NCBI GenBank assembly: GCA_021787435.1
Contig: JAJYLY010000006.1
Location: 62,001-126,000 of the forward strand
Length of the DNA stretch: 64,000 bases
Source: Pseudomonadota bacterium
GTDB lineage: Bacteria > Pseudomonadota > Gammaproteobacteria > Burkholderiales > Gallionellaceae
Direction of reading: 5' to 3'
Shown: positions 26,522-40,773 of the stretch, piece by piece
How the letters are laid out: every line of letters begins with the position of its first letter
How positions within the stretch are numbered: position 1 is the stretch's first letter
Notes under the pieces: generated by a model
Told to the model about the DNA's origin: nothing
Seen by the model: the letters and a program-made list of their open reading frames with translations, nothing else
The model's database searches: none
Translations under genes and position numbers: made by a program

Positions 26522-27145
26522 TCAGAAGTAACTCTCCGGAATGATCAGCACATCTCCTGGCAGCATCTGTACGTTAGCTTTGACATCGCCGTCCCTCATC
26601 AGGCTTTCAAGTCTAACGTTAAGCTGCTCGCTCTTGCCATTCACCCTGCGCAGTATGGTCGCCTTGTTGCCTGCAGCAAAGTCGGTGATTCCGCCGACCG
26701 CAATCATCACGTCCATCAACGTCATATTCTCCCTGTACTGGAGCGCCTGCGGCTTGGCTGCCTGCCCTATCACGCGGATCTGCTGGCTGTAAGGGCCGAC
26801 GAAACCGGTGACGATGACGGTGACGACGGGGTCCTGGATATATTTTGCGAGGGATTTTTCAAGGTCGCGCGCAAGGTGGGAGGGGGATTTGCCCGCGGCC
26901 TGCAGGTCTTCGACCAGAGGTGTCGAAATTTTTCCATCGGGGCGCACTGGTATCGTCTCCGACAACTCAGGATTGTGCCAGACCACTATATTGACGTTGT
27001 CGCCCGGCCCAATGATGTAGTTGTATTCTCCAGGCTTTACGACTTCTGCGGGTGCCGGCGGATAGTTTGACGCGCATCCTGCGAGCGCTACTGACAGCAC
27101 GATCAAAGCCCACACTCGGTTCATGTCATTTAGTCTTGGTATCAC
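26522..27145 (-). CDS. XrtA-associated polysaccharide export lipoprotein (Wza-like)
   Basis: A 207-residue outer-membrane lipoprotein with two Poly_export/SLBB-type domains. The lipobox LAGC places the lipidated Cys at residue 24. The conserved export motif is NYIIGPGDNVNIVVWHNPEL, followed by VRPDGKISTPLVEDLQAAGK, VTGFVGPYSQQIRVIGQAAK and LMDVMIAVGGITDFA. I favour GTG 27145 as the start because AGGAGG lies five bases upstream; the in-frame ATG at 27124 lacks such a site but would also leave a usable signal peptide. It is the first gene of the 19-kb operon and forms the periplasm-spanning export channel. Confidence 0.93.
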   Translation of the reverse strand: MIPRLNDMNRVWALIVLSVALAGCASNYPPAPAEVVKPGEYNYIIGPGDNVNIVVWHNPELSETIPVRPDGKISTPLVEDLQAAGKSPSHLARDLEKSLAKYIQDPVVTVIVTGFVGPYSQQIRVIGQAAKPQALQYRENMTLMDVMIAVGGITDFAAGNKATILRRVNGKSEQLNVRLESLMRDGDVKANVQMLPGDVLIIPESYF

Positions 27146-27485
27146 AAATGCCTCCTGGTGTTAGTTGTTTCAACTTTAGTAATGAACGGGTGGCGTCAGG
27201 ATTGCCCGTCGGTTTTTGTAAGCGGATTGCGTCGTTGATTCCTTGGTTTTTCTAATTTAAAGCCGATCTGGAAACATTCTACATACATGCAATCTCAACT
27301 GATTGCTCTATTGCATTGTAGTGTGGGTTTTTGCCTGGGTCAACGACCCGTCTGGATGGTACGACTCGCCTGACTGGCGGAATTTGTTATGCGTCAGACA
27401 GGATTCGAACTTATTTTCGGTTAAAATCCGCTCGCCGGTCATGGATAAAAGCCGCTTGAATCATCATCAGGGCTCTTGTGTTATC

Positions 27486-27501
27486 TGGCACAGACATTGC
27501 T
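27486..27501 (+). promoter_or_regulatory. sigma-54 (-24/-12) promoter of the priming-glycosyltransferase/prsK/prsR operon
   Basis: TGGCAC (27486–27491), five bases, TTGCT (27497–27501): TGGCACAGACATTGCT matches the RpoN consensus TGGCAC-N5-TTGCW exactly, with GG and GC at the required spacing. It lies about 118 bases ahead of the glycosyltransferase at 27619. The same operon encodes PrsR, a sigma-54 activator, so positive autoregulation is expected. PrsK/PrsR control of sigma-54 promoters is established for related XrtA loci. Confidence 0.75.
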
Positions 27502-27555
27502 TTATAATCCGCTGGCAGCTGAATTTAAATCCCGCGTTATTTTCGAGGCGCGACC

Positions 27556-27618
27556 ATGAACAAGTATCGAGTCGGTACCGCAGTCCGCGCGGGTCCGATG
27601 AAAGGGGTTTTTCGCTAA
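27556..27618 (+). CDS. possible 20-residue leader peptide
   Basis: ATG at 27556 opens a 20-codon frame, MNKYRVGTAVRAGPMKGVFR, whose TAA stop abuts the ATG of the glycosyltransferase (TAAATG). A GAGG lies about seven bases upstream. The glycosyltransferase itself has only a distant AAAGGGG, eleven bases away, so coupled translation from this frame could matter. The peptide resembles nothing known to me; it may be chance. Confidence 0.25.
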   Translation: MNKYRVGTAVRAGPMKGVFR

Positions 27619-29019
27619 ATGATCATACGGTTTTTTCGACAATATATTCCCGGGAGCGTCCTGCTGCTCCTGATGCTGGAATTGCTGGTTTTTTCGGGTT
27701 CGGTCTATGTGGGGGGGATGCTCAGATCAGTTGGTTCTGAATATTCTTCAGTTGCGTTTTTTTGGCATTTCCTGCCCAAGGCTCTGCTCTTTGCCGTCAC
27801 CATGTCCACGAGCCTGATGCTCTTCCGTCTCTACGACTACTGGCAGTGGAGCGGCGGCATCCAGTACATGCTGCCAAGACTGGGGGCCGCGTTGACGATG
27901 GGTTTTGTCGCAATGACGCTGATCTTCTACCTGTTCCCCGACACCTTCATGGGGCGCGGCGTGTTTGCGATTGCATATCTGGTATCGGCATTGTTGGTCA
28001 CGCTGCTCAGGCTGATCGTATTTAGATGGGCAAACCTGGAGGGGTTGAAACGCCGTGTTCTCGTTCTGGGTACCGGGAGTAGGGCTGCCAGGATAGGCGC
28101 GATGTTTGAAAGCGGCACGGTCTCCCACAGGCTGAAGGTTGTGGGCTATCTGCCTTTGAACGGCACGCACCACTTCGTCGATCGCTCCATGATGCTGAAC
28201 GACAGGGGGCGTCTGAGCAAGATTGCCAGGCAGCACAATGTCAGAGAGATCGTGATCGCGATCAGGGACCGCCGCGGAGGATTGCCGCTTGCGGAACTGC
28301 TCGAATGCAGGCTGATGGGGATCAGAATCACAGAACTGTCCGCATTCTTCGAGAGGGAAACGGGGTTGCTGCCCGTGGAGTCCCTCAACGCGGGTTGGAT
28401 CATCCATGCGGACGGATTCGAAAACGGGATAGCCAGGGACATCAGCAAGCGCATCTTCGATCTTTGCGCTAGCGGTCTGCTGCTGATCGTCTCTTTCCCC
28501 GTGATGCTGCTGGCTGCGATGCTCATTTTCCTGGAGAGTGGGGCGCCTATTCTTTACCGCCAGGAAAGGGTGGGGCAGGACGATTATGTGTTTACCATCT
28601 ACAAGTTCCGCAGCATGAGGCTGGACGCGGAAAAGGCAGGCAAGCCGCAATGGGCCTCTGCCAACGATGACCGCATAACGCGCGTGGGCAAGTTGCTGCG
28701 CAAGCTGCGCATCGACGAACTGCCGCAGATATTCAACGTGTTCAGGGGAGACATGAGCTTCGTCGGGCCGCGACCCGAACGTCCTTTCTTCGTGGAGAAG
28801 CTTGCCAACGAAATTACTTATTACAAATACAGGCACAGCGTGAAACCGGGGATCACCGGATGGGCTCAGGTGCGCTATGCCTATGGCGCATCGATAGAGG
28901 ACTCGATAGAGAAGTTGCAGTACGACCTCTATTATGTGAAGAACCACGGCCTGTTTCTCGACCTTCTGATTATGCTTGCCACAGTTCAGGTCGTGCTTTT
29001 CGGCAAGGGCGCGCGATAA
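27619..29019 (+). CDS. XrtA-associated priming sugar transferase (polyprenyl-phosphate hexose-1-phosphate transferase)
   Basis: A 466-residue membrane enzyme of the WbaP/WcaJ family in its PEP-CTERM/XrtA subfamily. The N-terminal part has four hydrophobic segments; a CoA-binding-like domain follows (VLVLGTGSRAARIGAMFESG). The catalytic bacterial sugar transferase domain covers about 270–466: ISKRIFDLCASG, YRQERVGQDD, YKFRSMRLDAE, LRKLRIDELPQIFNVFRGDM and FVGPRPERPFFVEKL. It transfers a sugar-1-phosphate to undecaprenyl phosphate, starting each repeat unit. First gene of the plus-strand operon behind the sigma-54 element. Its stop lies 14 bases before prsK. Confidence 0.94.
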   Translation: MIIRFFRQYIPGSVLLLLMLELLVFSGSVYVGGMLRSVGSEYSSVAFFWHFLPKALLFAVTMSTSLMLFRLYDYWQWSGGIQYMLPRLGAALTMGFVAMTLIFYLFPDTFMGRGVFAIAYLVSALLVTLLRLIVFRWANLEGLKRRVLVLGTGSRAARIGAMFESGTVSHRLKVVGYLPLNGTHHFVDRSMMLNDRGRLSKIARQHNVREIVIAIRDRRGGLPLAELLECRLMGIRITELSAFFERETGLLPVESLNAGWIIHADGFENGIARDISKRIFDLCASGLLLIVSFPVMLLAAMLIFLESGAPILYRQERVGQDDYVFTIYKFRSMRLDAEKAGKPQWASANDDRITRVGKLLRKLRIDELPQIFNVFRGDMSFVGPRPERPFFVEKLANEITYYKYRHSVKPGITGWAQVRYAYGASIEDSIEKLQYDLYYVKNHGLFLDLLIMLATVQVVLFGKGAR

Positions 29020-29032
29020 GCATGAAGCCCGG

Positions 29033-31063
29033 ATGAACATCTCGCTGATCACCGCAAGCTATCTGTCTGCAGCGCTCGCCTTTGCGTTTCTGGGCGTGTC
29101 TCTTCTGGCCAGCTGGCGCGGACAGTATCGCGGGGTGTTGCTGACGCTGGCATGTCTTGTCACTGCTATCTGGGCTTTTCTGAATACGTTTGCCGGCGAC
29201 AGGTTCATTCTTGCCAGGGCGGCGATGGAGGTCATTCGAAGCGCTGTCTGGCTGTTCTTCATCTGGGAGGTGCTGGCCGGAGCAAAAGACATCGTCACCT
29301 TGCAGCTTCGCGCGTTTAGGGCTGCGCTGATTTCGGTTTCACTTCTGCTGCTGGCATTGACGGTCTATGTCCATTCAGTGCCTTCTGACCTGTCGATTTT
29401 CGACATCACGGGCCATGTGATGCTGGCCATTCTAGGCATGGTTCTGGTCGAGCAACTTTTCAGGAATACCCATCCGGACTCCAGGTGGGGAATCAAGTTC
29501 GTCTGCCTCGCCACGGGCGCGATGTTTGCATACGATTTTTTCCTCTATTCGGACGCGATGCTTTTTCACCGCATCGATCCGGACATCTGGATGGCGAGGG
29601 GGGTGGTGAATGCGATCATCTCGCCGCTGATCATGGTGTCTGCAGCGCGCAACCCGCAATGGTCGCTGCGCGTGCACATTTCACGCCATGTCGTCTTTCA
29701 TACTGCAACGCTGCTGGGAGCGGGCATCTATCTTCTGCTGATGGCGGCAGTGGGCTATTACATACGGATGTTTGGGGGAACCTGGGGTTCCGTTTTGCAG
29801 ATCGCATTCTTTTTCGGCGCGAGCATGCTGCTGCTCACCATCTTCTTTTCAGGGAGCATGCGCGCAAGGCTAAGAGTGCTTCTGAGCAAGCATTTTTTTA
29901 CGTCCAAGTACGACTACCGCGAGGAGTGGCTGCGGTTCACCCGCACGCTCCTGACATCCGGGCAAAATGGACAGATTTACGAGGCAGCGATCAGGGCGAT
30001 CGCGGTTCTGGTGGAAAGCCCTGCGGGCGCGCTTTGGATGGCGCAGGAACCTGGCTCCGCCTATGTCTGCGTCTCGCGCTGGAACATACCTGCGGCAGAA
30101 GCGGCCGTGTCTGCCGATGATCCCATGGTGATATTCATGGCGAAATCCCAGTGGGTGGTCAATCTCGACGAATATCAGCCCGATCGTGCATCCTATTGCG
30201 ACTTCGAGATTCCTGAATGGCTTATGCAATTAAAGGATGCCTGGATCGTGGTGCCATTGCTACTGCAGGAGCGGTTGCTTGGTTTCATCGTCCTGGCCCA
30301 GCCGCGCAGCAATATCCATTTCAACTGGGAAGTCAGCGACCTGCTGAAGACTGCGGCGCACCAACTGGCGAACCATCTCGCACAGAAACAGGCAACCGAT
30401 GCGCTGCTAGTTGCGAAGCAGTTCGATTCATTTAACAGGATGTCCGCTTTTGTTGTGCACGATCTGAAAAATCTCGTGGCGCAATTGTCGCTGATGCTGT
30501 CCAATGCTGAGAAGCACAAAAACAATCCGGAATTCCAGGAGGACATGCTGAGCACGGTCCAAAATTCTGTCGACAGGATGAATCGCTTGCTGTCACAGCT
30601 GCGAAGCGGCGGAACGTTGATGGTGAAGGAAGTCGCGCTCTTTTCCCTGCTTCGGTCCGTGCTCGAGACTAAGGCTGCCTTGAAGCCTCGCCCGATGCTG
30701 AAGGTCGAAGACGAGCGCCTGCATGTTAGGGCGGATGCTGATAAGCTGACGCGGGTCATAGGCCACATCGTGCAGAATGCCTGCGAGGCCACACACTATG
30801 ACGGAAGGGTGGACGTCAGGCTATACGCCCACGATAAATTCGCGGTGGTCGAGGTGGAGGACAGCGGCAAGGGCATGGATAAGGATTTCATACGCGACCG
30901 CCTGTTCAGGCCTTTTGATTCGACCAAGAATTCCGGCATGGGGATAGGGGCGTATGAATGCCAGGAATACATATGCGAGCTTGGCGGACGTATCGAAGTG
31001 AAAAGTATCCCGGATAAAGGTACACTGTTCGTGATTTTCATACCATTGTCGGATAATCCATGA
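29033..31063 (+). CDS. prsK: XrtA-associated sensor histidine kinase PrsK
   Basis: A 676-residue membrane kinase. The first 290 or so residues hold eight to ten hydrophobic segments, a GAF-like domain spans about 315–460, and the kinase core follows. His476 in the H-box VVHDLKNLVAQL is the phosphoacceptor. The ATP-binding boxes are IVQNACEATHYDGRV (N), VVEVEDSGKGMDKDF (G1), RPFDSTKNSGMGIGAYECQ (F/G2). ATG 29033 is chosen by the family start MNISLITASYLSAAL; the open frame to 28976 overlaps the preceding gene. It should phosphorylate PrsR, encoded 33 bases downstream. The signal is unknown. Confidence 0.95.
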   Translation: MNISLITASYLSAALAFAFLGVSLLASWRGQYRGVLLTLACLVTAIWAFLNTFAGDRFILARAAMEVIRSAVWLFFIWEVLAGAKDIVTLQLRAFRAALISVSLLLLALTVYVHSVPSDLSIFDITGHVMLAILGMVLVEQLFRNTHPDSRWGIKFVCLATGAMFAYDFFLYSDAMLFHRIDPDIWMARGVVNAIISPLIMVSAARNPQWSLRVHISRHVVFHTATLLGAGIYLLLMAAVGYYIRMFGGTWGSVLQIAFFFGASMLLLTIFFSGSMRARLRVLLSKHFFTSKYDYREEWLRFTRTLLTSGQNGQIYEAAIRAIAVLVESPAGALWMAQEPGSAYVCVSRWNIPAAEAAVSADDPMVIFMAKSQWVVNLDEYQPDRASYCDFEIPEWLMQLKDAWIVVPLLLQERLLGFIVLAQPRSNIHFNWEVSDLLKTAAHQLANHLAQKQATDALLVAKQFDSFNRMSAFVVHDLKNLVAQLSLMLSNAEKHKNNPEFQEDMLSTVQNSVDRMNRLLSQLRSGGTLMVKEVALFSLLRSVLETKAALKPRPMLKVEDERLHVRADADKLTRVIGHIVQNACEATHYDGRVDVRLYAHDKFAVVEVEDSGKGMDKDFIRDRLFRPFDSTKNSGMGIGAYECQEYICELGGRIEVKSIPDKGTLFVIFIPLSDNP

Positions 31064-31096: not shown

Positions 31097-32449
31097 GTGA
31101 GTTCAATCAAAGAAACCTTGCTCCTTGTGGAGGATGATCCGGGACTTCAGAAGCAGGTGCGCTGGAGTCTGGATGAATACGATGTGCAGATCGCAGGCGA
31201 CAGGGAGAGCGCGCTTTCCCAAGTAAGGCGTTTCGAGCCTGCTGTGGTGATACTCGACCTGGGCCTGCCACCTGACGAGAATGGCGCAAGCGAAGGGCTG
31301 GCGACGCTGGAGCAGATCCTGATGCTCTCACCTGCCACCAAGGTCATCGTCGTGACCGGAAATCAGGACATGAGCAATGCGGTGCGCGCGATAGGCACAG
31401 GCGCCTACGATTTCTACCAGAAGCCTTTCGAGTCGGAGATGCTCGCGCTGATCGTGGGCAGGGCGTTGAGGCTGCACAAGTTGGAGCAGGAAAACTGCAG
31501 GCTGCGCATGAGGCAGCAGGATGCGCCCATGCAGGGCATCATCACGAGCGACCAGCAGATGCTGAAGATGTGCCGTACCGTGGAGCGGGTTGCGCCTTCG
31601 GACGCGACGGTGCTGGTCACGGGGGAGAGCGGCACGGGCAAGGAACTGTTCGCTCAGGCCTTGCACCAACTGAGTAGTCGCGCAGATAAGCGCTTCGTTG
31701 CGATCAACTGCGCCGCGATACCCGAAAATCTCCTGGAGAGCGAACTGTTCGGCTACGAGAAGGGCGCATTCACCGGTGCTGCAAAACAGACCATAGGACG
31801 CATCGAATATGCCAACGGAGGCACACTGTTTCTCGACGAGATCGGCGATCTGCCGTTTTCACTGCAGGCCAAACTGCTGCGATTCCTGCAGGAGAGGGTG
31901 ATAGAGCGCCTGGGCGGCAGGGGCGAGATACCCGTGGACACGCGCGTCATCTGTGCGACGCACCAGAATCTGCCCGATCTGATCAAGCAGGGCAAGTTCC
32001 GCGAGGACTTATATTACCGTTTGAGCGAGATCACCCTCTGCATCCCCCCGTTGAGGCAGCGCGACGGCGATGCAGCCCTGCTTGCGCACGCACTACTTGA
32101 GAAGTTCAACAGCCAGCAGGGGCGTTCCATCCGCGGTTTCAAGCCGGATGCGATAGAGGCCATCGAGAATCACGACTGGCCAGGCAATGTGCGGGAGATG
32201 CAGAACGTGATCAAGCGCGCAGTGATCATGGCGGAGGGCGCGCAGATCACATTGGAGGATCTGGCATTGAAGTCTGATCAGGAAGAGGCGGCGCCGATCA
32301 ACCTGCGCAAGGTCAGGGAAGAGGCAGAGCGCAAGGCGGTGCTGAGGGCCATGGCGCGGGCCAACGGAAACGTCGCGATGGCCGCCGACCTTCTGGGTGT
32401 GTCGCGTCCGACGCTGTATGACCTGATGAGCCGCCTGGACATGAAGTGA
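31097..32449 (+). CDS. prsR: XrtA-associated sigma-54 response regulator PrsR
   Basis: A 450-residue NtrC-type activator. The receiver domain (1–125) has Asp54 in AVVILDLGLPP as phosphorylation site. The AAA+ domain (about 145–380) has Walker A GESGTGKELFAQ and the sigma-54 contact loop GAFTGA in YEKGAFTGAAKQ. The C-terminal Fis-type helix-turn-helix reads NGNVAMAADLLGVSRPTLYD. It starts with GTG, preceded by GGAGA. In related bacteria PrsR activates sigma-54 promoters of PEP-CTERM and polysaccharide genes; here a matching promoter lies ahead of its own operon at 27486. Confidence 0.96.
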   Translation: MSSIKETLLLVEDDPGLQKQVRWSLDEYDVQIAGDRESALSQVRRFEPAVVILDLGLPPDENGASEGLATLEQILMLSPATKVIVVTGNQDMSNAVRAIGTGAYDFYQKPFESEMLALIVGRALRLHKLEQENCRLRMRQQDAPMQGIITSDQQMLKMCRTVERVAPSDATVLVTGESGTGKELFAQALHQLSSRADKRFVAINCAAIPENLLESELFGYEKGAFTGAAKQTIGRIEYANGGTLFLDEIGDLPFSLQAKLLRFLQERVIERLGGRGEIPVDTRVICATHQNLPDLIKQGKFREDLYYRLSEITLCIPPLRQRDGDAALLAHALLEKFNSQQGRSIRGFKPDAIEAIENHDWPGNVREMQNVIKRAVIMAEGAQITLEDLALKSDQEEAAPINLRKVREEAERKAVLRAMARANGNVAMAADLLGVSRPTLYDLMSRLDMK

Positions 32450-33534
32450 TGCATGTGACGGTCTACCAAAGTCTGGACGAGCTGCCGCCAAGCTGCGAGC
32501 AGCTTTTCGAGGAAGCTGGGAAAGCCAGTTTTTTCCTGACCCTCGAATGGTACCGCAATCTCGCAGGACAGGCATTGCCGGAAGACTGTCGTGCGCGTAT
32601 CTATGTGGCGCATGAAGGCGATGATGTGCTCGGGATATTGCTGATGAAGTTCGCCGCAGAGCGCGGCAGCCTATTTGCATGCAGGAAACTCGAAGCCCTT
32701 TCCAATTATTATTCCTCGCTGTTCATGCCTCTTGTCGCATCCGCCGATTGCCTGCAGATGATCGCCGATGAGATTGCGCGCGAGCACTGGGACAGTGTAG
32801 ACCTGCATCCCATGGCACAGGACTCCCCGCTTTTTGGCAGGCTTGAAGCGGCGATGAAGCATTCCGGCATGTCCGTGCAGCCGTATTATTGTTTCGGCAA
32901 CTGGTACCTGAAGGTCGACGGCCGTTCATATAGGGATTATTCGAATGCGCTACCCTCGAAACTCAAGAATACGCTAAAGCGCAAGGACAGGCAGTTTTCA
33001 GCGATGGCATCCAGGATGGAAATCATCACCGGCATCGACGGGGTGGACAGCGCGATTGCCGCATACCAGAAAGTCTATCATTCGAGCTGGAAGATACGGG
33101 AGCCACATCCCGATTTCATGCCGGGGCTGATTAGTCTCTGCGCCGAGCGCGGGTGGCTGAGGCTGGGGCTCGCGTATCTTGACGAAGAGCCGATCGCCGC
33201 GCAGCTCTGGATCGTGAAGGACGGGATTGCAGCTATCTACAAACTCGCCTATGACGAGAAATTTTCCAAACTGTCGGCGGGTTCGTTGCTCACCGCGAAA
33301 CTGATGGAGCACGTCATCGATGTCGACCATGTCAGCGAGGTCGATTACCTGACAGGAGACGACGACTACAAGAAGGACTGGATGTCGGACCGCCGCGAGC
33401 GCTGGGGAATCATTGCCTATAACAGACATACCCCGCGTGGGGTGTGTATGGGTGCGCTGAGCCGCGTGTCAGGCTATGCAAAAGGCGTGGTATGGAGCCG
33501 TGAGTCAGCCACGGTGAGAAGGAATTTCGGATGA
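32449..33534 (+). CDS. BioF2/FemAB-like GNAT acyltransferase
   Basis: A 361-residue protein with a GNAT acetyltransferase-like fold of the BioF2-like/CelD type. Landmarks are ASFFLTLEWYRNLAGQALPE, LPSKLKNTLKRKDRQF, KVYHSSWKIREPHPDFM and VDYLTGDDDYKKDWMSDRRE, the last being typical of exosortase-linked GNAT proteins. It probably transfers an acyl or aminoacyl group to an amino sugar. Start ATG 32449 shares one base with the prsR stop (TGATG); a GTG three bases earlier is possible. It overlaps the aminotransferase gene by four bases, which links it to amino-sugar formation. Confidence 0.82.
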   Translation: MHVTVYQSLDELPPSCEQLFEEAGKASFFLTLEWYRNLAGQALPEDCRARIYVAHEGDDVLGILLMKFAAERGSLFACRKLEALSNYYSSLFMPLVASADCLQMIADEIAREHWDSVDLHPMAQDSPLFGRLEAAMKHSGMSVQPYYCFGNWYLKVDGRSYRDYSNALPSKLKNTLKRKDRQFSAMASRMEIITGIDGVDSAIAAYQKVYHSSWKIREPHPDFMPGLISLCAERGWLRLGLAYLDEEPIAAQLWIVKDGIAAIYKLAYDEKFSKLSAGSLLTAKLMEHVIDVDHVSEVDYLTGDDDYKKDWMSDRRERWGIIAYNRHTPRGVCMGALSRVSGYAKGVVWSRESATVRRNFG

Positions 33535-34715
33535 GTGCGGCAGAAAAGATCCCCAAGAATCCGGTTATTTCCTGTCAGTCCTTCGGGCATGACAGGGAAG
33601 GCTTTCCGTCTGTGCTGGATGCAGGTGAAGCCCGGTATCTCAACAGGGGCAGTCTCGCAATCGCTTATGCATTGCAGCGGGTCGGCATCTCTAGCGGCGA
33701 TGAAGTGCTGATGCCGGCATACCATTGCTTGGCCATGGTCGAGCCGGTGAATTGGACCGGGGCAAACCCTGTATTTTTTCGCATAAAAGAAGATACTTCG
33801 CTTGATCTGGCTGACATCGAGCAGCGATTGACCGGATCGACCCGCGTTCTGATCGCCCCGCACTATTTCGGATTCCATCAGGACATGCCTAAAATACGCG
33901 CATTCTGCGATCGGCATCATCTCGTTTTGATAGAAGACTGCGCGCATGCCTTTCTTGGCAGGATGGCCGGCCATCCACTGGGCTATTACGGCGATTACGC
34001 GATCGGCAGCGCATGGAAATTCTTTCCTGTGGATGAAGGCGCGTGCGTCGTCTCTTCGCGAGGAGGTCTCTCCGGCGCCGCCACGGAACCGAGGGGGATT
34101 TTTTCCGAAATAAAGTCTCTCATGAATACGCTGGAATATGCGGTGGAATATCGCCGCCTGGGGTGGTTCAATCCGGTTTTCCGCTTGGTGTTCAGGCTCA
34201 AGGATGGGCTTTGGAATGTGCTGAAGCGCAGGCCGCCTACGTCTTTGCAGACTGTTGTTCGCCAAGAGAATCCGGGAGGTTCTACCGGATTTGACGAAAG
34301 CAGAGTAAGTCAGGCTATCTCGAGATCATCCCGCCTGATCATGACCGTTTCCTCGAAATCGAGGATGGCCCAGAACAGAAGAGAAAATTATCTGAAACTC
34401 CTGTCGCGCCTAGGCGATCTCCCGGGTTGTCGGCCGTTGTTTGGAAGCCTCCCCGATGGCGTGGTTCCCCATGTTTTCCCGCTCGTGATCGAAAATCCAG
34501 AGAAGATATTTCACAGGCTCAAGGACGAGGGGGTGCCTGTCATCCGCTTTGGCGAATATTTGTCGGGGGACATGCAAAAGGGACTATGCACGGTGAGCGA
34601 GGATTATTCGAGGCGGGTCTTTCAGTTTCCCTGTCATCAGGATTTGAAGGCTGAAGAACTGGAATGGATGATGGATAGGATCGCGGACATACTCTTGCGC
34701 TACGAACAGGAATGA
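33531..34715 (+). CDS. DegT/DnrJ/EryC1/StrS-type aminotransferase
   Basis: A 394-residue PLP enzyme that would convert a keto sugar to an amino sugar or act on a related substrate. LNRGSLAIAYALQRVG, DEVLMPAYHCLAMVEPVNW, LIEDCAHAFLG (with the PLP-binding Asp) and GSAWKFFPVDEGACVVSS are the family landmarks. The Lys in AWKFFPVDEG is the expected Schiff-base residue; the usual GEGG is changed to DEGA, as in other polysaccharide-locus members. It overlaps genes on both sides by four bases (33531 and 34712), so it is translated together with the two GNAT-like proteins. Confidence 0.85.
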   Translation: MSAAEKIPKNPVISCQSFGHDREGFPSVLDAGEARYLNRGSLAIAYALQRVGISSGDEVLMPAYHCLAMVEPVNWTGANPVFFRIKEDTSLDLADIEQRLTGSTRVLIAPHYFGFHQDMPKIRAFCDRHHLVLIEDCAHAFLGRMAGHPLGYYGDYAIGSAWKFFPVDEGACVVSSRGGLSGAATEPRGIFSEIKSLMNTLEYAVEYRRLGWFNPVFRLVFRLKDGLWNVLKRRPPTSLQTVVRQENPGGSTGFDESRVSQAISRSSRLIMTVSSKSRMAQNRRENYLKLLSRLGDLPGCRPLFGSLPDGVVPHVFPLVIENPEKIFHRLKDEGVPVIRFGEYLSGDMQKGLCTVSEDYSRRVFQFPCHQDLKAEELEWMMDRIADILLRYEQE

Positions 34716-35716
34716 AGATGAATTGGAAACTTTACCCCATCGATGAATTCGAACGCCATCAGGATGACTGGCAGAGGCTCAACCGGAAGGCGAAGGCTTC
34801 CCCTTTGCTTGATACTGCTTTTCTTTTTCCCGCCTTGAAGATGTTCGGCTCGGGCAAGGAGCTTCTCGCAGTGTATGGAGAGGAGCCGTGCGCAATGGCC
34901 ATACTGATGCCCAAAGGGGCGCTGGGATGGGCGACGTTCCAGCCTTCCCAGGCACCCATGGGCGCGTGGTTGCACGAGGATGGCATGGATTTGCAGTTGC
35001 TGCTCGCGAAGCTGCTGAGAGCGCTGCCCGGGTTGCCAGTCATCTTCGGACTGACGCAGCAGGACCCTGATCTTGTGCCAAGGCCGGCCGACAAGCCCGA
35101 TTTGAAGACGCTGGATTACATCGATACTGCGAGAATCACCGTCGAAGGCAGCTTTGACCAGTACTGGCAGTCGCGCGGGAAGAACTTGCGGCATAACATG
35201 AAAAAGCAGAGGAACAATCTGGAAAAGATGGGGATCGACACGAGGCTTGAGCTGATCACGGAGCCAGGGGATGTGGCGGAGGCGATCGCGGATTATGGCC
35301 GCATCGAAAGTGCAGGTTGGAAAGCGGAAGGAGGCACAGCCATCCATCCTGACAACGATCAGGGCAGGTTCTACAGGACGATGCTGGAAGCGTTTTGCAG
35401 GCAGGGGGCTGGGCGGATTTATCGGTATTGGTACAATGACAAGATCGCTGTGATGGATTTGTGCATCGAAGGAAACGGCAGCATCATCATACTGAAGACC
35501 ACATATGACGAGTCGGTGAGCAATGGGACTTCCCCGGCATTCCTCATGCGTCAGGATTCCTTCAGGCAGATATTCGATGAGGGAAGCCTGAAGAGGATAG
35601 AGTTTTATGGAAAGCTGATGGAATGGCATACGAAATGGAGCGAAGAAGTGCGAACCATGTATCATGTAAATTATTTCAGGTGGTCGTTTCTTCCGCGCTT
35701 GCGCCGCAGTGCGTGA
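34712..35716 (+). CDS. second BioF2/FemAB-like GNAT acyltransferase
   Basis: A 334-residue GNAT-fold protein. FDQYWQSRGKNLRHNMKKQR, IADYGRIESAGWKAEGGTAI, MLEAFCRQGAGRIYRYWYN and KTTYDESVSNGTSPAFLMRQ match the BioF2-like acetyltransferase family common in exosortase clusters. It is distinct in sequence from the protein at 32449 although both share the fold. Start at 34712 gives an ATGA overlap with the aminotransferase stop; ATG 34718 is an alternative. Together with the aminotransferase and the acyl-CoA ligase downstream it suggests N-acylation of an amino sugar. Confidence 0.82.
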   Translation: MKMNWKLYPIDEFERHQDDWQRLNRKAKASPLLDTAFLFPALKMFGSGKELLAVYGEEPCAMAILMPKGALGWATFQPSQAPMGAWLHEDGMDLQLLLAKLLRALPGLPVIFGLTQQDPDLVPRPADKPDLKTLDYIDTARITVEGSFDQYWQSRGKNLRHNMKKQRNNLEKMGIDTRLELITEPGDVAEAIADYGRIESAGWKAEGGTAIHPDNDQGRFYRTMLEAFCRQGAGRIYRYWYNDKIAVMDLCIEGNGSIIILKTTYDESVSNGTSPAFLMRQDSFRQIFDEGSLKRIEFYGKLMEWHTKWSEEVRTMYHVNYFRWSFLPRLRRSA

Positions 35717-35755: not shown

Positions 35756-37318
35756 ATGGCAGAGCTTTTGCATGAACTGATATCCGAAACTGCTAAATGC
35801 ATGCCCGAAAGGGAGGCGCTGGTCTATCAGAAATCGCGTTTGAGTTATGGGGAGCTTGCTGCCGAAGTCTCCCGTGTCGCCGGCACACTGCTGGGTCTTG
35901 GGCTTGCAAAATCAGAGCGGGTCGCGGTCTATCTTGAGAAGCGCATCGAAACCGTCACCGCGATGTTCGGCGCGTCCGCCGCGGGTGGGGTGTTCGTTCC
36001 GGTGAACCCAGTCCTGAAAGCCGAGCAGGTGGCTTACATACTTAAGGACTGCAATGTGCGCATCCTAGTCACTTCCGCCGATCGGTTGAAGCTGCTTTCC
36101 GGACCCTTGCAGGACTGCCGCGATCTGCATACCGTTATCGTCGTGGGTGATGAAGTTCCCGGGATTGCCGGGCTCGATGTGCTTCAATGGGATGGGGCTG
36201 TCCGTGAGGGAGGGAAAGGGCACCGGATCATCAACAGCGATATGGCGGCGATACTCTACACTTCGGGTAGCACAGGCAAGCCCAAGGGGGTGGTGCTCTC
36301 GCACCTGAACATGGTGACCGGGGCGAAGAGCGTTGCGCAGTATCTGGAAAATACACATGAGGACCGCATCCTCTCGGTTCTGCCGCTGAGTTTCGATTAC
36401 GGGTTCAGCCAGCTCACGACTGCGTTTCATGTCGGGGCCACGGCCGTGCTGATGAACTACCTTCTGCCCAGGGATATTGTGAGGGCCGCGGAAAAGGAAC
36501 GCATCACCGGGCTTGCCGCAGTGCCGCCGCTTTGGATACAGCTTGCCCAGATAGAGTGGCCAATTGGTGCGGCAGGCCGGCTGCGCTATTTCACCAATTC
36601 GGGCGGCGCGATGCCCCTGACCACGCTAAAAGATCTGCGTGCCCATTTCCCCAATGCGAGCCCCTATCTCATGTATGGGCTGACCGAGGCATTCCGTTCT
36701 ACCTATCTGCCGCCCGAAGAAGTTGATCGCCGTCCCGATTCGATAGGCCAGGCGATCCCCAATGCGGAGATCATGGTGGTGAGGGAAGACGGTTCTCACT
36801 GCGCGCCCGGTGAGCCGGGGGAGCTCGTGCATCGCGGCGCGCTGGTCTCTCTTGGATACTGGAACGATCCTGAAAAGACCGCCGAGCGCTTCAAGCCTGC
36901 GCCCAACCGTGAAAGCGGGCTTACCATGGCCGAGATGGCTGTATGGTCAGGCGACACGGTGCGGGTGGACGAGGATGGGTACCTTTACTTCATCAGCCGC
37001 AGAGATGAAATGATCAAGACTTCGGGCTACAGGGTGAGCCCCACCGAGGTTGAGGAAGTGATCTATGCCACCGGGATGGCGGGGGAAGTCGCTGCAGTCG
37101 GCGTGCCGCATCCTGTGCTGGGGCAGGCGATTGTCGTGATCGTCGCGGCGCGAGAAGGGCTGTCCTTGGATGCAGATGCCCTCATGACCGAATGCAGAGA
37201 ACGCCTACCGGCCTATATGGTGCCTGCCGAGATCAGGCCTTATCCGGGCAGCCTGCCGCGCAACCCGAACGGAAAGATAGACAGGAAATTTCTCTTAAAT
37301 GAAATTCTGAACCAGTGA
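35756..37318 (+). CDS. XrtA-associated acyl-CoA ligase (AMP-forming)
   Basis: A 520-residue ANL-superfamily enzyme that adenylates a carboxylic acid and forms a thioester. Motifs: ILYTSGSTGKPKGVVLSHLN (phosphate loop), YLMYGLTEAFRSTYLPPEE, SGDTVRVDEDGYLYFISRRD (ribose-binding Asp), and PRNPNGKIDRKFL (catalytic Lys). It matches the exosortase A-associated ligase family. In other loci this ligase travels with a dedicated acyl carrier protein and a decarboxylase; neither is present here. It could activate the acyl donor for the two GNAT-like enzymes upstream. Last gene of the compact plus-strand operon. Confidence 0.92.
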   Translation: MAELLHELISETAKCMPEREALVYQKSRLSYGELAAEVSRVAGTLLGLGLAKSERVAVYLEKRIETVTAMFGASAAGGVFVPVNPVLKAEQVAYILKDCNVRILVTSADRLKLLSGPLQDCRDLHTVIVVGDEVPGIAGLDVLQWDGAVREGGKGHRIINSDMAAILYTSGSTGKPKGVVLSHLNMVTGAKSVAQYLENTHEDRILSVLPLSFDYGFSQLTTAFHVGATAVLMNYLLPRDIVRAAEKERITGLAAVPPLWIQLAQIEWPIGAAGRLRYFTNSGGAMPLTTLKDLRAHFPNASPYLMYGLTEAFRSTYLPPEEVDRRPDSIGQAIPNAEIMVVREDGSHCAPGEPGELVHRGALVSLGYWNDPEKTAERFKPAPNRESGLTMAEMAVWSGDTVRVDEDGYLYFISRRDEMIKTSGYRVSPTEVEEVIYATGMAGEVAAVGVPHPVLGQAIVVIVAAREGLSLDADALMTECRERLPAYMVPAEIRPYPGSLPRNPNGKIDRKFLLNEILNQ

Positions 37319-37424: not shown

Positions 37425-38969
37425 GTGCTGTTTAATTCGGTAGAGTTCATTTTTCTGTTTCTTCCAGTGCTTCTCATTATATTTTTTCATCTAGGACGTT
37501 ACAGTCGTCGTCTGGCAGCACTCTGGCTTGCTGCGGGTTCGTTTTTCTTTTATGCCTGGTGGAATCCTTCCTATATTGGGCTTTTGCTTGCTTCTATAGC
37601 ATTTAACTACTCCGTGGGGTATGCGTTGGCACGCAGCAACGATATCGTTTCACCCAGGCGCAATCTGCTGCTGGCTCTGGGGGTAATCACCGACTTGTCA
37701 TTGCTTGGTTACTACAAATACGCCAATTTTTTTATCCAGACAACCAATGCTGCGATTGGGACATCTTATGGTTTTGCAGACATCGTTTTACCTTTGGGCA
37801 TTTCATTTTTTACCTTTACACAGATTGCATTTCTGGTGGATGCTGCGCGCGGCGAAGCACGGGAATTCAACTTCATCCATTACAGTTTGTTCGTCAGTTA
37901 TTTTCCCCATCTGATTGCCGGACCGATTTTGCATCACAAGGAGATGATGCCGCAGTTTGGGCGTGCCTCAACCTATCGTTTCAGTATGGATGATTTCACA
38001 GTTGGATTGACGATTTTTGCGCTTGGATTGTTCAAAAAAGTCGTTATCGCAGATGGCGTTGGACCTTATGCGGGCATTTTGTTTGCCTCTGTGGATCACG
38101 GTGATACTCTGGGCCTATTTCAGGCATGGGAAGGCGCGCTGGCCTATACCCTGCAACTGTATTTTGATTTTTCCGGTTATTCCGACATGGCTATTGGTCT
38201 TTCCTGCATGATTGGTGTGCGTCTCCCGCTGAATTTCAATTCGCCATACAAGGCCGCCAATATTGCTGATTTCTGGCGTCGCTGGCACATGACCCTGTCG
38301 CGTTTTTTGCGTGATTACCTTTATTTTCCGCTGGGTGGCAATAGAAGAGGTCAAGGTCGTCGATATGTCAACCTGATGGCGACTATGTTGCTTGGTGGCC
38401 TGTGGCATGGCGCAGGCTGGACTTTTGTTATCTGGGGTGGCTTGCACGGTGCTTATTTGATAATTCACCAGGTATGGCAGTCAATGAGGATCAGGCTAGG
38501 TTACGGCCACACATCTGCATCGGGTCGTTTCATGGGTGTGGGACTCACCTTCGTCGCAGTTGTTGTGGGTTGGGTATTTTTTCGCGCGCAAACTTTTCAT
38601 GGTGCCATATCTATGCTTCGCAGTATGGGCGGGCTTAATGGTGTCAGCCTGCCTGATGCCATCGCCTTGCATCTTGGGCCATTTGCCTCGCGTCTTAGCA
38701 GTTTAGGAGTGGTTTTCAATCCGGGTGGCGGACATGAATTTGTAATGAATGCCGTCTGGGTGTTTGTGTTGTTGCCGGTTGTATTTTTAGCGCCCAATAC
38801 CCAGCAGATTCTGTATCGATTCAGGCCCGCACTGGATCAACGAGCGGATGACACTACTGCATTGGGTTGGTCACCTGATTTGCGCTGGGGCATTGCCATG
38901 GCAATCGTGCTTGCTGCTGGCTTGTTGTCCCTCGCTCATCCGGGCGAGTTTCTCTACTTCCAGTTTTAA
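37425..38969 (+). CDS. MBOAT-family O-acyltransferase (AlgI-like)
   Basis: A 514-residue polytopic enzyme with about eleven membrane helices. The MBOAT landmarks are clear: FNSPYKAANIADFWRRWHMT with SRFLRDYLYFPLGGNRRG, and LLGGLWHGAGWTFVIWGGLH carrying the catalytic His. It passes an acyl group, usually acetyl, across the membrane onto a polysaccharide, as AlgI does for alginate. It starts with GTG behind GGGAGA. The next gene, ten bases after its stop, encodes an SGNH-like partner. Base composition and codon use appear more AT-rich than the XrtA genes before it. Confidence 0.93.
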   Translation: MLFNSVEFIFLFLPVLLIIFFHLGRYSRRLAALWLAAGSFFFYAWWNPSYIGLLLASIAFNYSVGYALARSNDIVSPRRNLLLALGVITDLSLLGYYKYANFFIQTTNAAIGTSYGFADIVLPLGISFFTFTQIAFLVDAARGEAREFNFIHYSLFVSYFPHLIAGPILHHKEMMPQFGRASTYRFSMDDFTVGLTIFALGLFKKVVIADGVGPYAGILFASVDHGDTLGLFQAWEGALAYTLQLYFDFSGYSDMAIGLSCMIGVRLPLNFNSPYKAANIADFWRRWHMTLSRFLRDYLYFPLGGNRRGQGRRYVNLMATMLLGGLWHGAGWTFVIWGGLHGAYLIIHQVWQSMRIRLGYGHTSASGRFMGVGLTFVAVVVGWVFFRAQTFHGAISMLRSMGGLNGVSLPDAIALHLGPFASRLSSLGVVFNPGGGHEFVMNAVWVFVLLPVVFLAPNTQQILYRFRPALDQRADDTTALGWSPDLRWGIAMAIVLAAGLLSLAHPGEFLYFQF

Positions 38970-38978
38970 TTCCTCGCG

Positions 38979-40244
38979 ATGAAACATTACCTGTTTTTTT
39001 GGCTGGCCTTAACCGCATGTCTGATGCTGGTTATGGGCGCAATCAATTTTGTCGTCGATCCTTATGGGATATTTTATGTTGTAGACAAAGTTGGTTTCAA
39101 TAGCGTTAAACCCGCAGCGGGTGGACATGGAGCTACGGGAAAGTATTACCGGGTGATGGGGGTTCAGCCACGCGGGGTGATTCTGGGCAATTCGCGTGCG
39201 GAAGTGGGGTTTGATCCGTTGTCTGCTGCCTGGCCCGAAAAAGCGCGCCCGGTATTTAATTTGGCATTGCCAGGCACGGGTCCTCGCTCTAGTCTGGAGT
39301 CCCTGCAGCATGTGCTGAACGATGCTCAAGAAGGCCATGCAGTAAAGCCGGAGGTGGTTGTATGGGGTATCGATTTTATGAATTTCCTTGACAACATTCA
39401 TGAGCCGGGCCAGTCGCCTCCAAAGAATAACAGACTGCTGGCTAGTTCTTTCGGTTCGGAATTTCCAATACATTTTCCAAGGCAGATAAAGGATTATGCG
39501 GACGCTACATTTTCGTTTGACGCTTTTGTAGATTCAATCAGGACGATTGCCAGTCAGTCAGATCCTTACGTCGAGAATTTAACAGCTTTTGGATTCAATC
39601 CCATGCATGACTACATAAAAATTTCTGCTGATGAAGGATATTGGGCTGTATTCCGCCAGAGAGATATTGAGAATGTCAAAGCGTATTTGCGCCGTTCGAC
39701 GAATTTATACGATGGCGCAGGCAACTCCTCGCCGGATTTGGATAATCTTCGCGCAGTGATACGCCTTTGCAGACAGCATGGCATTGAGTTGCACCTCGTG
39801 ATTTATCCGTATCACGCGCATTTGCTTGAAATTTTTCGCATTACAGGGCACTGGCCTGCTTTTGAGGCATGGAAGCGCGAGGTTGTGCGTATCGTTGCAT
39901 CCGAATCTTCGCAGAATAAAGATAATACTGTTTCATTGTGGGACTTTAGCCAGTTTAATGAACTGACTGAGGAGGCTGTTCCCGCCAAGGCAGACCGCAA
40001 GAGCAAAATGCATTGGTATTGGGAGGCGGGACACTTCAAGAAAGAATTGGGTGAGCTGGTTTTAGACAGGTTATTCGGTCATCAAGGTGCAAGAGAAGAC
40101 TTCGGGGTGCTGCTCAATAAGCAAAATCTGGAAGCGCATCTTGCCATAGAACGGGTTAGGGAGGCTGACTACCGCCGCAGATATTCCGCTGATGTTGAGC
40201 AACTGCAGAAGATCGATATGGAAATATTGTCCAGGAAGCATTGA
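38979..40244 (+). CDS. SGNH-like membrane-anchored protein, partner of the MBOAT acyltransferase
   Basis: A 421-residue protein with one N-terminal membrane anchor (FFWLALTACLMLVMGAINFV) and a periplasmic domain. GVILGNSRAEVGFDPLSAAW contains a G-N-S-R block in the place of the SGNH nucleophile motif. KMHWYWEAGHFKKELGELVL near the end supplies a candidate downstream His. The arrangement MBOAT plus SGNH-like protein recalls AlgI with AlgJ/AlgX, and PatA/PatB, where the second protein completes O-acetyl transfer to the glycan. I do not recognise an exact named family, so catalytic activity is inferred. Confidence 0.7.
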   Translation: MKHYLFFWLALTACLMLVMGAINFVVDPYGIFYVVDKVGFNSVKPAAGGHGATGKYYRVMGVQPRGVILGNSRAEVGFDPLSAAWPEKARPVFNLALPGTGPRSSLESLQHVLNDAQEGHAVKPEVVVWGIDFMNFLDNIHEPGQSPPKNNRLLASSFGSEFPIHFPRQIKDYADATFSFDAFVDSIRTIASQSDPYVENLTAFGFNPMHDYIKISADEGYWAVFRQRDIENVKAYLRRSTNLYDGAGNSSPDLDNLRAVIRLCRQHGIELHLVIYPYHAHLLEIFRITGHWPAFEAWKREVVRIVASESSQNKDNTVSLWDFSQFNELTEEAVPAKADRKSKMHWYWEAGHFKKELGELVLDRLFGHQGAREDFGVLLNKQNLEAHLAIERVREADYRRRYSADVEQLQKIDMEILSRKH

Positions 40245-40331: not shown

Positions 40332-40773
40332 TTAATACATCATTTTCTGACGACAAACCAGTCCCGTGAGGCCGATGCCAAGTAGCAGGATGCTTCCAGG
40401 TTCTGGTACGGTGACAGGGTATGTGTTCGTCGCGCTAGTTATGTAGCCGTTGGAACCAGCGGTAAATGTTCCGTTGACGTTTATATAATTGTCGTTGACG
40501 GCATTGGGTCCTGCCGAGGCTTTCTGCTGTGCTTGTGAGTGATGTGTTTGCGGCACTGGTAATTGCGTCAGAAATAATCTTGATCACAGTGGTGTCCGGA
40601 AGTTGTCCCGGAACGTTGCTGTCCAGACTGACATAGTGGACAGATTCACCATTCGAAGTCTTAAGCGAAATGAAGGGGTGAAGCTGCCTGACTGATTTCG
40701 GTGAGGATGAAACCTTGTATAAATTCATGAGAATAGGCTTGTGTAAGTTCTGCCGATAAGGCCGCTTTAGCAT
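40332..40773 (-). pseudogene. PEP-CTERM protein gene, frameshifted remnant
   Basis: The last 35 codons (40332–40440) encode a classic exosortase sorting tail: YPVTVPEPGSILLLGIGLTG then LVCRQKMMY. That frame is open only back to about 40580 and starts with an unconvincing GTG at 40556. A neighbouring frame is open from 40773 to 40435 and reads GESVHYVSLDSNVPGQLPD followed by a Ser/Thr/Ala-rich stretch, low-complexity sequence that would join naturally to NAVNDNYINVNGTFTAGSNG in the tail frame. A frameshift near 40500–40560 is the simplest reading. No signal peptide is seen. If intact it would be the local XrtA substrate. Confidence 0.6.

Follow-up and report, generated by a model that had tools for sequence, protein, structure and literature searches.

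A predicted sigma-54 promoter ahead of the epsB2-prsK-prsR operon lacks the PrsR box found at PEP-CTERM genes of the same genome

In activated-sludge bacteria, floc formation requires PEP-CTERM proteins that are under the control of PrsK/PrsR; no statement on the control of PrsK/PrsR itself was found in the literature examined. Which activator switches on the operon that encodes PrsR? The locus described here lies in a 64,000-nt stretch of DNA, hereafter the window, where epsB2, prsK and prsR open a nine-gene run. The genes of the run and the element ahead of it are as follows.

27486..27501, + strand: predicted -24/-12 sigma-54 promoter element TGGCACAGACATTGCT (pattern match, kept in three relatives, 14/61 against 1/61 on the reverse strand)
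27619..29019, + strand: epsB2, XrtA/PEP-CTERM priming glycosyltransferase (TIGR03013; family profile)
29036..31063, + strand: prsK, histidine kinase (TIGR02916; family profile)
31097..32449, + strand: prsR, sigma-54 response regulator with GAFTGA (TIGR02915; family profile and domain match)
32446..33534, + strand: GNAT acyltransferase (PF13480; domain match), overlapping prsR by 4 nt
33531..34715, + strand: DegT/DnrJ aminotransferase family protein (domain match)
34712..35716, + strand: GNAT acyltransferase (PF13480; domain match)
35756..37318, + strand: exosortase A-associated acyl-CoA ligase (TIGR03098; family profile)
37425..38969, + strand: DltB-like protein (TIGR04091, below its cut-off; family profile)
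38979..40244, + strand: final gene of the run, without a match in family and domain searches

The matches to TIGR02915, TIGR02916 and TIGR03013 were above cut-off and the genome encodes PEP-CTERM proteins, which places the locus in the XrtA/PEP-CTERM system. The GAFTGA motif that the initial annotation had read in PrsR lies inside the Sigma54_activat domain. The genome encodes a single RpoN and six strong sigma-54 activators, among them PrsR, an NtrC that scored above its cut-off and a GlrR-like protein that stayed below. All nine genes are predicted to be co-transcribed. Just past the end of the operon, positions 40350-40773 on the - strand carry an 83-aa open frame with a PEP-CTERM tail (PF07589 over cut-off); it is preceded by an ORF in another frame, so that this stretch looks like a broken PEP-CTERM gene.

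The element TGGCACAGACATTGCT at 27486-27501 on the + strand has the exact GG-N10-GC spacing within TGGCAC/TTGCW surroundings. It ends 117 nt before the ATG of epsB2, a promoter position from which the transcript is predicted to start at about 27511-27513. The pattern TGGCACN5TTGCW matched the window exactly once, at this site. In the genome (2.73 Mb, 34 contigs) there were 7 exact matches to the 16-mer, compared with 0 for the reversed pattern; three of them were inside long open frames, and the others preceded epsB2, a pilin gene, a NarK-like transporter and a small ORF. The 16-mer by itself is therefore weak evidence. Between the element and epsB2 there is also a 20-codon ORF (27557-27619); its stop runs straight into the epsB2 start (TAAATG), and the ORF is not conserved among relatives.

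The comparison with related loci was more informative. A PrsK scan of genome contigs yielded 80 loci, and the three closest (L097, L098, and L099; epsB2 identity 86-94%) represent two genomes, since L097 and L098 come from one MAG. The aligned sites in these epsB2-prsK loci were TGGCATGGCTATTGCT, TGGCATGGACATTGCT, and CGGCATGGGCATTGCT, with GG-N10-GC kept in all three and an invariant ATTGCTTTATAATC directly after it. When 61 epsB2 upstream regions of 160 nt each, which are phylogenetically non-independent, were scanned, a -24/-12 site of at least 9/11 was found in 14 of them vs 1 on the reverse strand, and the shuffle control gave a mean of 1.23 and a maximum of 4. The conservation of the site in relatives indicates that the element is more than chance. 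Pattern match and conservation thus confirmed the exact, correctly spaced -24/-12 that had been proposed ahead of the operon, and the sigma-54 promoter predicted from it is probably real.

We also considered that sigma-54 does not use the 16-mer and that a sigma-70 promoter reads the operon, for example through the -10-like TATAAT at 27503-27508 or TAAAAT at 27422-27427. TATAAT shows no variation among the four close loci, the related loci L101-L105 have no -24/-12 but carry GGTARAAT near the epsB2 start, and the bare 16-mer occurs inside open frames elsewhere in the genome, all of which fit this explanation. However, a sigma-70 promoter scan of 27100-27700 reported no site on the + strand, and the alignment of the four close loci contained no conserved -35 hexamer 17 nt before TATAAT, whereas it keeps both the -24 GG and the spacing. 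Moreover, the -12 GC is followed by TTTA at other -24/-12 sites as well, for example at the pilin gene and in L113. A promoter of the sigma-70 type alone is considered unlikely. One further block stood out in the alignment.

27414..27429, + strand: conserved block TTTTCGGTTAAAATCC, 56 nt upstream of the -24, the best conserved upstream block in the four loci

This block showed 35/42 matches over the four loci vs a shuffle maximum of 30. It could be an upstream activator site, or else a second sigma-70 promoter could have its -10 there. In the latter case, an upstream sigma-70 promoter (TAAAAT, 27422-27427) would provide basal PrsK/PrsR and sigma-54 would boost it. A sigma-54 promoter that depended wholly on the regulator it transcribes would have no basal expression, and the two blocks are separately conserved in the four close loci, which speaks for such an arrangement; but the upstream block has no recognisable -35 and the sigma-70 scan was silent there, and we regard two promoters as quite improbable.

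The export operon on the other strand was compared in the same region.

26522..27145, - strand: polysaccharide export protein (TIGR03027; family profile), first gene of the divergent operon
27315..27343, - strand: putative sigma-70 promoter TTGACC-N17-TACAAT of the divergent export operon (sigma-70 scan and relatives)

TTGACC-N17-TACAAT was the only sigma-70-like site in 27100-27700. L019 and L099 keep identical hexamers and spacing, and the sequence of L098 aligns across the block. In L097, which has a 420-aa ORF between the two arms, the block is not kept. The export operon thus has a sigma-70-type site kept in relatives and no -24/-12, which supports the suggestion that the arms are under different control. 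The MAG that contains L097 and L098, BP5.bin129, has two epsB2-prsK-prsR clusters, in one of which the 420-aa ORF separates the export gene from epsB2.

If sigma-54 reads the operon, the activator has to be sought. Upstream of PEP-CTERM genes in proteobacteria, Haft et al. (2006) recognised two motifs: motif 1, 17 nt long with TTTACA at its end, which they took to be the probable PrsR site, and, on average 62.8 nt further downstream, the sigma-54 motif 2 (PMC1569441). In this genome motif 1, the predicted PrsR box, has the form TGTCGG-N5-YTTACA, which PrsR would bind. It was found before all 6 intact PEP-CTERM genes found (5 exact, 1 with one mismatch). A scan for -24/-12 elements before PEP-CTERM genes had been suggested, and it succeeded: at 5/6 genes a -24/-12-like site (8-10/11) lies 52-74 nt downstream of the box, one of the five having AG in place of GG, and the best candidate at the sixth gene was 7/11. 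Nine exact boxes occur in the genome, 7 at intact PEP-CTERM genes, 1 in an open frame and 1, at G000:C14:25380-25396 (L061), 323 nt before a 306-aa non-PEP-CTERM ORF, with no -24/-12 found between. The box was found in 10 of the 11 related genomes searched. A one-mismatch box was also recorded at 40742-40758, upstream of the 83-aa frame with the PEP-CTERM tail.

At the prsR operon the result was different. No box with up to 3 mismatches was found on either strand of 27146-27486. A PWM was built from 40 boxes gathered by exact pattern, which makes the matrix strict; over the epsB2 upstream region its best score was -5.6 vs a training minimum of 18.3, and 18% of random same-size tiles reach -5.6. 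A motif 1 at 32-92 nt before the -24/-12, as expected of a PrsR regulon promoter, is thus missing here, while the PEP-CTERM genes of the same genome serve as the positive control. The box was also absent upstream of epsB2 in the three closest relatives, whose two genomes have 8 and 5 exact boxes elsewhere. The search for PrsR-binding repeats upstream of the -24, which the initial annotation had proposed, returned no box and only one inverted repeat, a 7-nt pair about 170-200 nt upstream of the -24.

These results bear on positive autoregulation, in which PrsR would activate its own operon, either via a degenerate site such as 27414-27429 or from solution, with no good site on the DNA. PrsR is encoded in the operon that bears the exact -24/-12, and the 27414-27429 block, 56 nt upstream, is within the distance range of motif 1, and its TTTCGG departs from the left half-site TGTCGG at one of six bases, which makes a degenerate PrsR site conceivable. 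In Sapientia aquatica (L134), epsB2-prsK-prsR is preceded, at 418 nt, by an exact -24/-12 together with an exact PrsR box, the sole such locus among those examined. In several Sedimenticola loci, where prsK is on the opposite strand from epsB2, a box and a -24/-12 lead into a small ORF that lies upstream of epsB2 and shares its strand. On the other hand, the right half-site is missing in all four loci, and the PWM score is far below all true boxes. With a box at every intact PEP-CTERM gene but none at the prsR operon or in close relatives, the feedback loop through PrsR that the initial annotation had inferred is unsupported, and we consider autoregulation improbable in this clade, though it may operate in some lineages, as in Sapientia.

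The explanation we prefer, to which we give about an even chance, is that the operon is read from a sigma-54 promoter under an activator other than PrsR, and that PrsR acts one step lower. RpoN holoenzyme would read the -24/-12 at 27486-27501 and produce the epsB2-prsK-prsR-acylation transcript, switched on by an enhancer-binding protein other than PrsR (activator X). PrsR, once made and phosphorylated, would bind the TGTCGG-N5-YTTACA boxes and thereby activate the scattered PEP-CTERM genes, each through its own -24/-12. A housekeeping promoter would serve the divergent export operon. The order would be activator X, prsKR, PEP-CTERM regulon, which is a cascade and not a loop. What the sequence shows directly is the element and its conservation, the PrsR box, which this operon lacks, and the sigma-70-type site of the other arm; that the promoter is active, that an activator X exists and what it is, that PrsR binds the box and that all nine genes form one transcript are inferred. 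Zoogloea prsK and prsR mutants still made and secreted exopolysaccharide (PMC9012009), an indication that EPS genes there can do without PrsR; this, like the Aquincola evidence below, comes from species other than the window organism. Three observations count against the cascade: the box and -24/-12 before the same operon in Sapientia, the conserved 27414-27429 block as a conceivable degenerate PrsR site, and the fact that no binding site of another activator was identified in the window clade, where scans with NtrC- and GlrR-type consensus gave chance level.

A candidate site was seen in six other betaproteobacteria, which share CAAAACATCGTCAT at 115-124 nt before a -24/-12 that lies 60-78 nt before epsB2.

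CAAAACATCGTCAT positions: L110 3380, L113 3390, L114 3393, L116 3391, L123 757, L126 3380

TGACGA follows downstream in 4/6 loci. In each of the six genomes, epsB2 is the only place where an exact CAAAACATCGTCAT is followed by a good -24/-12; a further exact copy, in apparent coding sequence, is present in one of them. This operon specificity suggests that a non-PrsR activator drives the operon in that group. CAAAACATCGTCAT was not found in the window or the close loci; CCAAAATCCGTCATGAGGCTGACGGA of L098 lies at a similar distance, but the likeness is loose and not enough to call it a counterpart. It is possible, though we hold this more tentatively than the cascade as such, that the prsK-prsR operon is the single target of a dedicated, unnamed sigma-54 activator, that a two-tier cascade gates PEP-CTERM display, and that CAAAACATCGTCAT is the activator's site in one betaproteobacterial group. 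The preferred explanation predicts that a second sigma-54 activator, not PrsR, drives the prsR operon here, and the sharp PrsR box can be used for predicting regulons in this group.

Compared with the promoters of Haft et al. (2006), the one described here shares motif 2, the -24(GG)/-12(GC) element, and its genome likewise encodes PrsK/PrsR and PEP-CTERM proteins; it has no motif 1 upstream, however, and its target is not a PEP-CTERM gene but the priming-transferase/regulator operon (PMC1569441). A second comparison is offered by Aquincola tertiaricarbonis RN12, which has four RpoN paralogues. According to the available part of the report on this strain, it also has an epsB2-prsK-prsR cluster, and that part contains no mapping of the cluster's promoter (PMC9850573). 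Its pepA is described there as RpoN-dependent with a mapped start, and the RpoN-type element, TGGCAC...CTGCTT, resembles that of the window; the difference is that pepA belongs to the PEP-CTERM genes and has a predicted enhancer (PMC9850573).
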